From positions 1 through 43,229 of the forward strand of contig CALUWE010000016.1 in assembly GCA_944324425.1 (NCBI GenBank): DNA of 43,229 nt, written 5' to 3'. Origin of the DNA: Candidatus Gastranaerophilales bacterium. GTDB taxonomy: Bacteria > Cyanobacteriota > Vampirovibrionia > Gastranaerophilales > Gastranaerophilaceae. Every line of letters starts with the position of its first letter. The first letter of the stretch is position 1. The position numbers and the translations under genes were made by a program. This document shows positions 3,785 to 22,157 of this stretch, piece by piece. The notes below the pieces were generated by a model. It was given only the letters and a program-made list of their open reading frames with translations, made no database searches and had not been told where the DNA came from.

Positions 3785-4819
3785 TTAATCCATTAATCCC
3801 ATTTCTCTCAGCTTTTCAACTTGGGCATAATGGTCGTTAGACTGCAAAAATATCATCATAGGGAAGCTTCCCATAAGGTGAACCGTAAATTCATACCCTT
3901 CGCTTGTAAATTTCTTGCCTTTTTTCTGCATTGCTTTTGTATATTTATCTATAATCGTAAGCGTATTTTTAATAGCCAGATTTTTGTCGTCATCGCTTAC
4001 TTTAGGCTCATCCGGATTATAGCTCGGCATTATATATGTATTCAAATATTCAATATTTGTTAGTGCCCAAAGAGCATTCCCAAGGTCATTATCATATTTA
4101 TCAGACATTTTGTCCGTGTCGATTATTTCAATTGTGCCCTTATCTTCATCCAACAGAAAATTGTTTGCGTTGTAATAGTCAAACCTGTATCCGGCATTAT
4201 TAAGAGCGTCAAATTTATCAATTAAAGAATCATAAGCTTCTTCAGGCGTGTCTGCCAAAATTTGAAGGCATTTTGCATAGTGTTCTTTTCTTTCGATTGC
4301 TTCATAAGGAAGCTCGCCTTCTCTTAAATCACCGTTTTCATAATGAATGGCACTTGGCGGGGGGTTTCCGTTTGAAATGCCGTTTTGTTTTTTCAAAACG
4401 CTTATTCTGGGGTCATTTGGGCTGTCTGTTTCCAAAATTGCAACTTCTTGGCCAAAATTACCTTTTAGCTTTTTATCTTCAGTGTCTGTTATTTTATATT
4501 GACTGTAATCTGTTCTTTTGGAATCAAAATAATTTCTTGAAACTCTTAAAACAAAATCATCGTTATTCGGAATTTTATAAACAGAGTGGCTAAAACCTTG
4601 CCCTAAAAGATTTTCTTCACTCAAGGCAGCTTGCAGTCCGCCTTCTAAAAAGCGGTTTTCACCTGCCCATTTTATAAATTCATTATCGGGTTGTTCTTTT
4701 TTTGGCTCGGTTGATTTTACAAAGCAATCATTTTCCATAGGTTTTAATCTTGCTTTTTGTGCTGATGCTTCAAAATCAGGCGAGGTAACTTTTCCCATAA
4801 AAGATATTCTGTTAATCAT
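3785..4819 (-). CDS. Protein-kinase-like protein with N-terminal SFxG-type tag
   Basis: This 344-residue soluble protein is not recognised as a named family but carries kinase-fold landmarks in the right order. These are a glycine-rich loop GQGFSHSVY (73-81), a beta-3-like FVLRVSR with Arg92 where most protein kinases have Lys, and a possible alpha-C glutamate E125 in FGQEVAILE. A catalytic-loop-like FDYYNANNFLL follows, with D214 and N219 at the Asp-x4-Asn spacing, and then a metal-binding IIDTD with D234 in the DFG position. Arg at the beta-3 position resembles choline/aminoglycoside-kinase-type folds, so it could be a small-molecule kinase or a pseudokinase. Residues 1-10 (MINRISFMGK) carry the tag also seen in the neighbouring protein. 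There is no signal peptide or membrane segment. It lies 36 bases downstream of the JAMM-like gene, probably in one operon with it. Confidence 0.6.
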   Translation of the reverse strand: MINRISFMGKVTSPDFEASAQKARLKPMENDCFVKSTEPKKEQPDNEFIKWAGENRFLEGGLQAALSEENLLGQGFSHSVYKIPNNDDFVLRVSRNYFDSKRTDYSQYKITDTEDKKLKGNFGQEVAILETDSPNDPRISVLKKQNGISNGNPPPSAIHYENGDLREGELPYEAIERKEHYAKCLQILADTPEEAYDSLIDKFDALNNAGYRFDYYNANNFLLDEDKGTIEIIDTDKMSDKYDNDLGNALWALTNIEYLNTYIMPSYNPDEPKVSDDDKNLAIKNTLTIIDKYTKAMQKKGKKFTSEGYEFTVHLMGSFPMMIFLQSNDHYAQVEKLREMGLMD

Positions 4820-4855
4820 TTTGTTTTAATTCTTTCTTAATTTGTACATTATATT

Positions 4856-5707
4856 TTATTTGCAAGAACCGTATTCTAAAACAGTTCCGTATCTTAAAGA
4901 AAACTTCTCAAGAAATTTTTTTAATATTTCATTTTCCTGTTCGCTGCCGCTCTTTACCGTACTGATATATTTTATATATTTTTCCATATGAGGCTCAAAT
5001 AAAGAAGTTCCCAGTTCAGAACTTTTATATCTCAAGATGTCATAGGCTTCTTGAGGGTTTTTTGGCACAAAGCCGTTGTAGAGTTTGCGTTTAATTGTCT
5101 GTTCATCATCGGTGCCAAGCTTTTTTGCCAATTTAGCTTCACATATCGATATAAATTCATCATCCATTCCCCATGGCACACCCAAATATTCAAGCCAATT
5201 TTTCATAAACAATTCATCAACTTCATCATGAATTTGAGAAGGATCTTTAAAATTCATAAAGCCGTCAGGCTTTGTCATAGAGCATGTATTGCCGTTTTTA
5301 TCGACAGCAACAACCTTTTTTAAATTCGGATTTGACAAAAACACAATAATATCATTCGGCGAAAGGGGTTTCAAAGTTTCGCCGGGGTGGCCGTGAACAA
5401 TGGTTGTTTCAGGCTTCAATTTATCATATAAAACGGCGCAATTACGCGCTTCGCCCGAATGCTCATACAAAATTTCACCGTCTTTACTTATTGCAACAGA
5501 ATATTCAAAAGGGCAATTTTCTCTCAGTTTTTCGCTGCAAACCGATTTTGCATATTCATAGCTTCGGTCAAATTTTTCCGAATTAGCGGAATCACTCCCT
5601 GTTTTGGCACCATCCGCCTCTTTTAAAGAATCATTGCCTTTTATATTATTTGTACCGAATGAAACCGAATTTATATTATTTGACAAATTTACATTATTTA
5701 AATACAT
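4856..5707 (-). CDS. JAMM/MPN-like metallopeptidase candidate with N-terminal SFG tag
   Basis: The reading frame is open from 5806, but the start at 5707 is preferred. It has a GAGG Shine-Dalgarno 8 bases upstream, and it places the tag NSVSFG (residues 13-18) near the N-terminus as in the neighbouring gene. The resulting 283-residue protein has a core from about residue 66 to 150 with HGHP (H105, H107) followed by seven residues and SPND (S116, D119). This is the HxHP-x7-SxxD zinc-binding pattern of JAMM/MPN peptidases. The required glutamate could be E68, E78 or E82. The C-terminal ~130 residues are helical, charged and unrecognised. No signal peptide is seen from this start. The protein could cleave isopeptide or peptide bonds, but the substrate is unknown. 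It is divergent from gyrB and precedes the kinase-like gene. Confidence 0.55.
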   Translation of the reverse strand: MYLNNVNLSNNINSVSFGTNNIKGNDSLKEADGAKTGSDSANSEKFDRSYEYAKSVCSEKLRENCPFEYSVAISKDGEILYEHSGEARNCAVLYDKLKPETTIVHGHPGETLKPLSPNDIIVFLSNPNLKKVVAVDKNGNTCSMTKPDGFMNFKDPSQIHDEVDELFMKNWLEYLGVPWGMDDEFISICEAKLAKKLGTDDEQTIKRKLYNGFVPKNPQEAYDILRYKSSELGTSLFEPHMEKYIKYISTVKSGSEQENEILKKFLEKFSLRYGTVLEYGSCK

Positions 5708-5801
5708 ACAAGCTGCCTCACATTCACTTAGTATTAAAAATAAAACCCGAAAAAAAATTGCTTGTTTGTTTGTTAAAATATGTTTGTATTTTGCTACATG
5801 A

Positions 5802-5815
5802 AGCACTTTTGTGCT
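5802..5815. promoter_or_regulatory. Palindrome in the divergent gyrB / JAMM-like gene promoter region
   Basis: AGCAC-TTTT-GTGCT is a perfect 5-bp inverted repeat in the 144-base gap between the two divergent starts. It lies just upstream of TATTAT (5820-5825), a possible gyrB -10 box, so it would fall between the -10 and -35 elements, a normal operator position. No clear -35 was found. The bound protein is unknown. It could also be a chance palindrome or a hairpin in the minus-strand transcript. Confidence 0.35.
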
Positions 5816-5842
5816 AGGATATTATAAAGACTTTTTAATTAA

Positions 5843-8299
<2,457 letters not shown>

Positions 8300-20940: not shown

Positions 20941-21771
20941 ATGTCCGATTTAGGCGCAATAAATGCATCAAATGTAAGTTTTCAAGGCTCTAAAGAGACT
21001 GACAAAACAAAACTTGAAGTAGCAAAAAAAGCTCCGAGAGTTAAAAGTGCGGATTTTGGCGAAGATAAACCAAAACTTATGGACAAATTAACCCAGCCCA
21101 TTAAAGACGAATTCCAAAAGGCATACGGCAAGGATGCCGAAGCAACGCCATCGTTGGTTGCAGACTTTGTTTCAGACAACATTGTTAAATTGGGCGTTCT
21201 TGTTGCAGGCGGTGCTTTACTTCTTGCAAAATCAAGAAAAGCTACAAACGGTTTAACAGAAGCTCTTAAAGAAAACATCGGCAAAATGAAAGCCGCCGCA
21301 ACCGAAGGTGAAAAGACAAGTATTTTCAAAAAAACCGTTGATTTGGTTAAAAATACATATGGCAAAGTAAAAACAAATAACTTGGAAGCTGCAAAAGCTG
21401 CAGCAGAAGACGCAGCAAAAACGGGTTCAAAAACATTAAGACAAACCGTCGAAGAAGCAATTTTAAGACCTACAAAATTTGAAGAAGGTACAAAATTTGC
21501 CGGCTTTATTGATAAACATTTCGGAAAACATGCTCCAAAAATTAAAGAAACTTTAGGAAAAATCGGTATCAGCAACGGTTCGGATTTAGCGGATACAGCA
21601 ATGGCAGGTGCTGCAACAGTTGCGCTTGGCAGCGGCGTTAACGACATTGCAGGCGACGTAACAGAAAAAGATAATAAAACTCTTGCACGTGAAGCAAAAG
21701 TTAAAAAATTTGAAGACATATTAACAACAGCAAGCAAAATTGCAGATACAGCAAGCATGTTGGCAGGTTAA
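20941..21771 (+). CDS. Unknown Lys/Ala-rich protein with N-terminal VSFQG tag (276 aa)
   Basis: I do not recognise this family. The N-terminus reads NASNVSFQGSK (9-18), the same type of tag as in the kinase-like and JAMM-like proteins. Residues 81-96 (IVKLGVLVAGGALLLA) are hydrophobic and glycine-rich and could cross or enter a membrane. A second Ala/Gly-rich stretch lies at ~216-236 (LADTAMAGAATVALGSG). The rest is Lys/Ala/Glu-rich and likely helical. There is no classical signal peptide. The start has AAAAAGGGAAG upstream. A 124-residue gene of similar composition follows 11 bases later, so they form an operon. The richness in Ala, Lys and Thr and the absence of known domains suggest a structural or membrane-associated role, but none can be assigned. 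Confidence 0.75.
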   Translation: MSDLGAINASNVSFQGSKETDKTKLEVAKKAPRVKSADFGEDKPKLMDKLTQPIKDEFQKAYGKDAEATPSLVADFVSDNIVKLGVLVAGGALLLAKSRKATNGLTEALKENIGKMKAAATEGEKTSIFKKTVDLVKNTYGKVKTNNLEAAKAAAEDAAKTGSKTLRQTVEEAILRPTKFEEGTKFAGFIDKHFGKHAPKIKETLGKIGISNGSDLADTAMAGAATVALGSGVNDIAGDVTEKDNKTLAREAKVKKFEDILTTASKIADTASMLAG

Positions 21772-21782
21772 GGTTAATTAAA

Positions 21783-22157
21783 ATGATTCAACCCATTACT
21801 CAAAATGCAAATATTACATCGGCAGGCAATCTTAAACCGGTTGAAGTGCCCCATTTTACGGGCTTTACAAAGGTAAAAGGCGAAGGCGGACAAGACAAGT
21901 TTGTTAAAACTGCCAAAGCAGCCAAAAAAACAGCGAAGAAAACCGGTGATTTTGCCGTAACCTTTAAAAAGAATGCTGCGGAAACTTTTGACGCAGCCAA
22001 AGACGGGGCAAGGGAAGGTGTAAAAGTTATTGCAGACGCTACCAAAAAAGGAGCTGAATTTACGGCATCACTTGCAAAGTCTCTATATGAAGACCTGTCA
22101 GGCGTTATTAGAGAAAAAGGAACAAAAACCATCACAAACTTGGATGGTTTGGTATAA
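21783..22157 (+). CDS. Unknown Lys/Ala-rich helical protein (124 aa)
   Basis: This is a small basic protein, second in the operon with the 276-residue gene. The N-terminal part has VEVPHFTGFTKVKG (20-33), possibly a variant of the SFxG-type tag. Residues ~40-100 are repetitive Lys/Ala/Thr-rich (KTAKAAKKTAKKTGDF, then TFDAAKDGAREGVKVIADATKKGAEF). This resembles histone H1-like, LEA-like or amphipathic apolipoprotein-like helices. No signal peptide or membrane span is seen. AAGGTT lies 8 bases before the ATG. It ends at a terminator shared with the convergent mannosidase gene. The composition alone does not settle DNA binding versus membrane binding. Confidence 0.72.
   Translation: MIQPITQNANITSAGNLKPVEVPHFTGFTKVKGEGGQDKFVKTAKAAKKTAKKTGDFAVTFKKNAAETFDAAKDGAREGVKVIADATKKGAEFTASLAKSLYEDLSGVIREKGTKTITNLDGLV

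Follow-up and report, generated by a model that had tools for sequence, protein, structure and literature searches.

A disordered N-terminal tag on unrelated enzymes of Gastranaerophilales as a candidate type III-like export signal

Beside gyrB in the genome of a Candidatus Gastranaerophilales bacterium, two adjacent genes encoding a kinase-like protein and a JAMM/MPN-like metallopeptidase begin with similar short stretches, raising the question of whether the pair forms a functional module or whether the shared start is the more telling feature. The window analyzed here is the whole of contig C16 (43,229 bases) of this 1.84 Mb genome, whose relatives are Candidatus Gastranaerophilales metagenome-assembled genomes, such as Ca. 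Galligastranaerophilus. A sequence-only reading of the window had proposed a joint signalling or effector module whose two proteins lack signal peptides, share a short Ser-Phe-Gly-type tag and are possibly delivered to a partner or host cell. Both genes, their motifs, their spacing and the neighbouring gyrB (5852-8299, divergent from the pair) were confirmed at the positions given in Table 1. The results point away from a module and towards the N-terminal tag, which is likely to be a genuine shared targeting signal and which, judged from sequence, has about an even chance of being a type III-like export signal read by a filament-less flagellar-type gate.

The tag consists of some 35 disordered residues following the pattern M-x-I-x-x-[IV]-x-F...D-x-F-x-[KR]-[ST], in which the Asp lies close to residue 31, and coincides with the segments of low predicted local distance difference test (pLDDT) score in the AlphaFold models of both proteins (Table 1). 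The kinase-like protein of the window presents a full match (MINRISFMGKV...ENDCFVKS), scored at E 2e-13 by a tag profile that includes its own sequence. Most kinase-family proteins and many JAMM-family ones start in a similar way, as illustrated by MINRINFLGQIQTIQSKKNEHFQTKPMECDCFVKS (JAMM, G166) and MINKINFLGKIHSVQSKKNEHFQAKPIENDCFIKN (kinase, G091); the full tag is present in 12 of 30 JAMM-family members, and the JAMM relative L032 carries DEFIKS. The shared tag of the sequence-only reading was hence found complete in the kinase and in part of the JAMM family, weak in the JAMM protein of the window, and spread far more widely than the pair.

This spread was assessed with a profile built from 41 tags, all belonging to kinase or JAMM relatives, which was searched in 233 genomes of the order spanning 48 genera and matched in 122 of them at E <= 0.05. 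Nearly all of the 40 stretches with matches outside the kinase and JAMM families proved to be true N-termini; one of the 20 second-batch matches (L203) was excluded because it did not lie at the N-terminus. Clustering of the protein bodies with blastp revealed that 23 or more unrelated families carry the tag, across many genera. Pfam matches among these bodies include GH77 4-alpha-glucanotransferase, M3 peptidase, HD/HD-GYP-like, 5'-nucleotidase, methyltransferase and DHH domains, with weaker matches to ankyrin, LRR-like and HNH domains, and many tagged bodies have no Pfam match. The motif Asp falls at residues 27-37 in 71 of 77 tagged proteins (median 31). In a sample of the phylum (292 genomes, 115 genera) the tag matched at E <= 0.01 in 40 genomes, 39 of which belong to the order, the sole match outside it lying in a frame with two stops. 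An independent but small test on 910 unselected proteins, a set without kinase or JAMM relatives, located D-x-F-x-[KR]-[ST] five times at residues 16-45, an odds ratio of 4.6 (p 0.012) relative to the ten occurrences in the much longer remainder after residue 60.

The GH77 enzymes provide a further indication of a targeting role. A tagged GH77 occurs in G042, G092, G127, G070 and G047; each of these five genomes possesses another, higher-scoring full-length GH77 elsewhere, and this second copy is absent from the listed tag matches, a pattern that fits a tagged enzyme in a special location with the housekeeping copy staying. Within the window's own genome, for which figures are drawn from stretches covering about one quarter of its length, the profile recovered the kinase and weak partial matches only, and the repertoire of this genome is therefore poorly captured by the tag profile. 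Several of its proteins (L159-L178, L183-L186) bear a variant, SF[GK][GA], within the first 40 residues and without D-x-F-x-K (for example C2:54767, C9:4079 and C3:3537). At 20941-22157 of the window, two adjacent plus-strand genes have tag-like starts (NVSFQGS; HFTGF...GQDKFVKTAK), the first of them with no Pfam match, and the tagged kinase gene of L066 stands in head-to-head orientation to another tagged gene on the minus strand (L066:9190-9882; NDSFTKS, 230 aa).

The composition of 35 tags was compared with that of 197 ordinary N-termini of the window's genome. Acidic residues are strongly reduced in the tags (Asp+Glu 2.8% versus 12.2%, p 2e-12), as are Leu (5.6% versus 9.9%) and Ala (3.0% versus 5.2%), while Ser+Thr+Pro are enriched (20.8% versus 14.9%, p 4e-6) and Asn is also commoner. 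Verified type III effectors are depleted in Leu, Ala, Asp and Glu and enriched in Ser, Thr and Pro (PMC2669295); Asn aside, the bias of the tag is the published one, and the tag combines it with the N-terminal position and disorder described for type III signals. Its layout also recalls that of early flagellar subunits, in which a hydrophobic element at residues 2-5 is followed, from residue 30 onwards, by a docking motif, the optimal spacing being about 24 residues (PMC8983047); the second element of the tag is a different one. A candidate gate recognition motif, F-x-x-x-[IV], was considered and rejected, as it directly follows the start only in the M-I-N subset of tags and not in most others.

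A real targeting signal could also direct proteins somewhere unrelated to type III export: into a contractile extracellular injection particle or a protein compartment, to the cell surface, or onto a scaffold protein. Such destinations would suit a modular disordered tag that heads enzymes of cytosolic type (GH77 and M3 peptidase, for instance), and docking or packaging peptides have an explicit motif more typically than type III signals do. The composition and two-part spacing of the tag nevertheless resemble type III signals, and almost all of the genomes encode a type III-type gate; we regard this alternative as possible but rather unlikely.

The gate itself is near-universal in the order. 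Every one of the 233 genomes encodes FlhA and 231 encode FlhB, with flagellin in 93. In the window's own genome, FlhA (712 bits) lies on contig C17 together with FliH, FliF, FliE and a lytic transglycosylase, FlhB was detected at E 4e-112, and contig C6 carries FlgB, FlgC and two FlgF/G-type rod genes; no Flagellin_N match was obtained in this genome at E 1e-5. FliP, FliQ, FliR and FliI are reported in the lineage (PMC3787301). In a 482-aa protein at G000:C9:16173-17621 (L185:16176-17621, minus strand) an unrelated N-terminus precedes the C-terminal cytoplasmic part of FlhA (FHIPEP 321-656), the rest of FlhA being absent, and the second FHIPEP match seen in most order genomes may be of the same kind.

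We propose that the tag acts as an export signal on many unrelated folded bodies. A hydrophobic stretch (residues 2-7), followed 22-26 residues on by D-x-F-x-[KR]-[ST], would be read by an FlhA/FlhB-FliPQR gate that in most Gastranaerophilales would operate without a filament; the tagged protein would be unfolded and then passed out of the cytoplasm, and new cargo would arise when a new body recombines behind an existing promoter and tag. Recognition of the tag by the gate, secretion of the proteins and any target are what we infer from this combination of features. Of the sequence-only reading, the idea of a shared tag and possible delivery is what holds, and it reaches well past the two genes; delivery of tagged proteins into other cells is a tentative suggestion. 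Similarly doubtful is the broadest interpretation, in which the whole order, gut bacteria related to Cyanobacteria, would have repurposed a filament-less flagellar exporter as a general secretion system, with a short N-terminal code exchanged between dozens of enzymes, of which some (kinase, deubiquitinase-like, LRR, ankyrin) seem aimed at other cells.

Several points weigh against the export interpretation. The JAMM protein of the window itself has a weak tag (SVSFGTNN) without D-x-F-x-K. Because the profile itself selected the proteins used to measure tag position and composition, those figures are partly circular, and the composition control consisted of ordinary N-termini instead of other disordered tails; among the five start-region cases of the 910-protein test, at least one is doubtful, L065 having the appearance of a chance match. 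The tag has a consensus, which type III signals normally lack, and D-x-F-x-[KR]-[ST] differs from the F-x-x-x-hydrophobic motif recognized by the gate. Since every genome of the order has FlhA, its presence or absence cannot link the tag to the gate, and the machinery surveyed was the flagellar-type one, other candidates being extracellular contractile injection systems (eCIS) and microcompartments.

Exchange of bodies behind the tag can be followed at one locus. In genus g19, a locus with a JAMM gene (L042) and two with a kinase gene (L071 and L009) are 93.8% identical over 1,484 bp, a stretch that takes in upstream DNA and the initial 103 bases of the gene; beyond the tag the bodies are unrelated, and the downstream flank is again 90.5% identical. 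Across the 150 bases 5' of the start codon, 146 positions (97%) are identical. A JAMM gene at this site occurs also in G197, and the other g19 loci examined carry a kinase gene. From the aligned sequences, this is an exchange of kinase and JAMM bodies behind one promoter and tag, of the kind described as terminal reassortment in type III effectors (Stavrinides et al. 2006, as cited in PMC7406222). The joint movement of promoter and tag, together with the near-identity of the bases upstream, would also suit a tag with no role at the protein level, carried along with body exchange as a recombination scar or as a favourable AT-rich translation start. Such an origin is nonetheless improbable given that Asp31 and Phe33 are invariant in all 30 kinase-family members aligned while other tag residues diverge, that the motif keeps a constant distance in more than 20 unrelated families across many genera, and that acidic residues are largely excluded from the tag. 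Tagged kinase or JAMM genes adjoin gyrB or lie about 2 kb away from it in several genera (window 5852-8299, L069, L066, L078), on differing sides. The gyrB neighbourhood was considered as a single inherited site in two genera and rejected, the g19 gene being located 3' of gyrB and that of the window's genus 5'.

The genes of the window are neighbours on one strand with a short gap, the arrangement that had suggested a dedicated two-gene signalling or effector module. Of 241 order genomes, 95 have the kinase family and 28 the JAMM family, and the two occur together in 11 of the 28 JAMM genomes against a chance expectation of 11.0, so that the co-occurrence check across relatives went against a joint function. 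The genes adjoin only in this genome; in its nearest relative (G151) they lie on separate contigs, and in genus g19 a single site holds either the one or the other. In L061, L062, L063 and L003 the kinase gene is directly next to gyrB, without a JAMM gene, and BLASTN alignments of the window to these loci extend up to ~5752-5769 and resume at ~4734 or lower, indicating that the JAMM gene was apparently inserted between the gyrB region and the kinase gene. On co-occurrence and synteny the module was rejected; we regard it as highly improbable, and the operon reading as close to excluded.

The fold assignments made for the two proteins, by comparison, held up. The model of the kinase-like protein (AlphaFold, alignment with 29 relatives) has a mean pLDDT of 86.8 and matches kinases and APH in Foldseek with a probability of 0.91-1.0. 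VIA-align yielded moderate Z scores of 6.2-7.3, with all listed rows kinase-like, including APH(2'') (7.3), NleH2 (6.8) and OspG (6.7), and the effector kinases NleH and OspG are among the Foldseek and VIA-align neighbours. Across 30 family members the predicted kinase motifs are conserved: the GxG loop (G73/G75, 30/30), the D-x4-N catalytic loop (D214, 30/30; N219, 28/30) and the metal-binding Asp at the DFG position (D234, 30/30). The putative beta-3 Lys position (V-L-R-V), placed from the alignment only, is Arg in 27 members and Lys in 3. The model thus supports a kinase-like fold, and the protein may be enzymatically active; no relatives were found in viral contigs.

The JAMM protein was modelled at a pLDDT of 73.7, and its top VIA-align rows (Z 8.1-8.9) are MPN proteins: BubCD (8.9), Cap3 (8.5), PfJAMM1 (8.4) and Rpn11 homologues (one of them 8.3). 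The zinc-site residues E68, H105, H107 and D119 are present in 30/30 family members and S116 in 28/30, the family motif reading H-x-H-P-x7-S-x-x-D as predicted. An MPN fold is supported by this model, and peptidase activity would be expected. No match to curated Pfam profiles, including JAB, was obtained up to E 10; such a match is usual for JAMM/MPN metallopeptidases but is not required by the fold family. Pfam and PDB sequence searches with both window proteins returned nothing above threshold. In agreement with the sequence-only reading, no signal peptide was seen in either protein when the sequences were judged by eye, without a predictor. The JAMM reading frame of 283 aa is counted from an ATG, and an alternative GTG start would extend it to 5806.

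Table 1. Coordinates of the features described, in positions of the window.
Feature	Position	Strand	Evidence
Kinase-like protein, 344 aa, with N-terminal tag	3785..4819	-	AlphaFold model; kinase-fold matches; relatives in 95/241 order genomes
Tag of the kinase-like protein, residues 1-36 (MINRISFMGKV ... NDCFVKS)	4712..4819	-	D31/F33 invariant 30/30; AlphaFold pLDDT <50 over residues 1-41
36-base gap, kinase gene to JAMM gene	4820..4855	-	JAMM gene apparently inserted between gyrB-side intergenic region and kinase gene
JAMM/MPN-like metallopeptidase, 283 aa	4856..5707	-	E-x(n)-HxHP-x7-SxxD in relatives; MPN-fold matches; 28/241 genomes
Disordered N-terminus of the JAMM protein with degenerate tag (SVSFG)	5594..5707	-	AlphaFold pLDDT <50 over residues 1-38; full tag in 12/30 family members
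gyrB intergenic region, common to relatives with the kinase gene directly next	5708..5851	.	BLASTN, window vs L061-L063, L003

Gastranaerophilales are human and animal gut bacteria for which the literature found describes no type III secretion or secreted effectors, and a search of the titles and abstracts of the open literature returned nothing on point for type III secretion in this group. A recognizable tag would allow the whole candidate secretome to be listed from sequence alone. If true, the proposed export role would provide a reason for the persistence, without flagellin, of a flagellar export gate so far read as decay.

Among known systems, type III effectors likewise carry a disordered N-terminal signal of about 25-35 residues that is rich in Ser, Thr and Pro and poor in Leu, Ala, Asp and Glu, and likewise place one signal on unrelated effector domains, whose bodies are exchanged downstream of a retained promoter and signal (Stavrinides et al. 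2006, cited in PMC7406222; PMC2669295). The Gastranaerophilales tag differs from them in having a recognizable motif at a fixed position and in being a putative secretion signal; no needle or translocon genes were seen, although no search aimed at them was made. The early flagellar substrates FlgD, FlgE and FlgG (PMC8983047) offer a similar layout, with two elements, the second about 24 residues downstream, that are read unchaperoned by FlhA/FlhB-FliPQR; the second element of the tag is, in contrast, D-x-F-x-[KR]-[ST] and not F-x-x-x-hydrophobic, and the tagged cargo consists of enzymes and not of rod or hook subunits. With the JAMM/MPN isopeptidases Rpn11, PfJAMM1, Cap3 and RadC the window protein shares the fold and the E...HxH...SxxD zinc site, but it has no Pfam JAB match and its family is known here only from Gastranaerophilales. 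We know of no tagged enzyme repertoire in Buchnera, which belongs to a different phylum. The filament-less flagellar basal bodies of Buchnera (PMC8109811) are comparable in that basal body and export genes are likewise kept in a reduced-genome bacterium. A precedent from the same lineage comes from the gut Melainabacteria, whose partial flagellar gene sets have been read as reduction or loss of motility; the accessible portions of these reports propose neither an export role nor substrates (PMC3787301, PMC4040986), and what differs here is the near-universal presence of the gate genes and the description of a candidate substrate tag.
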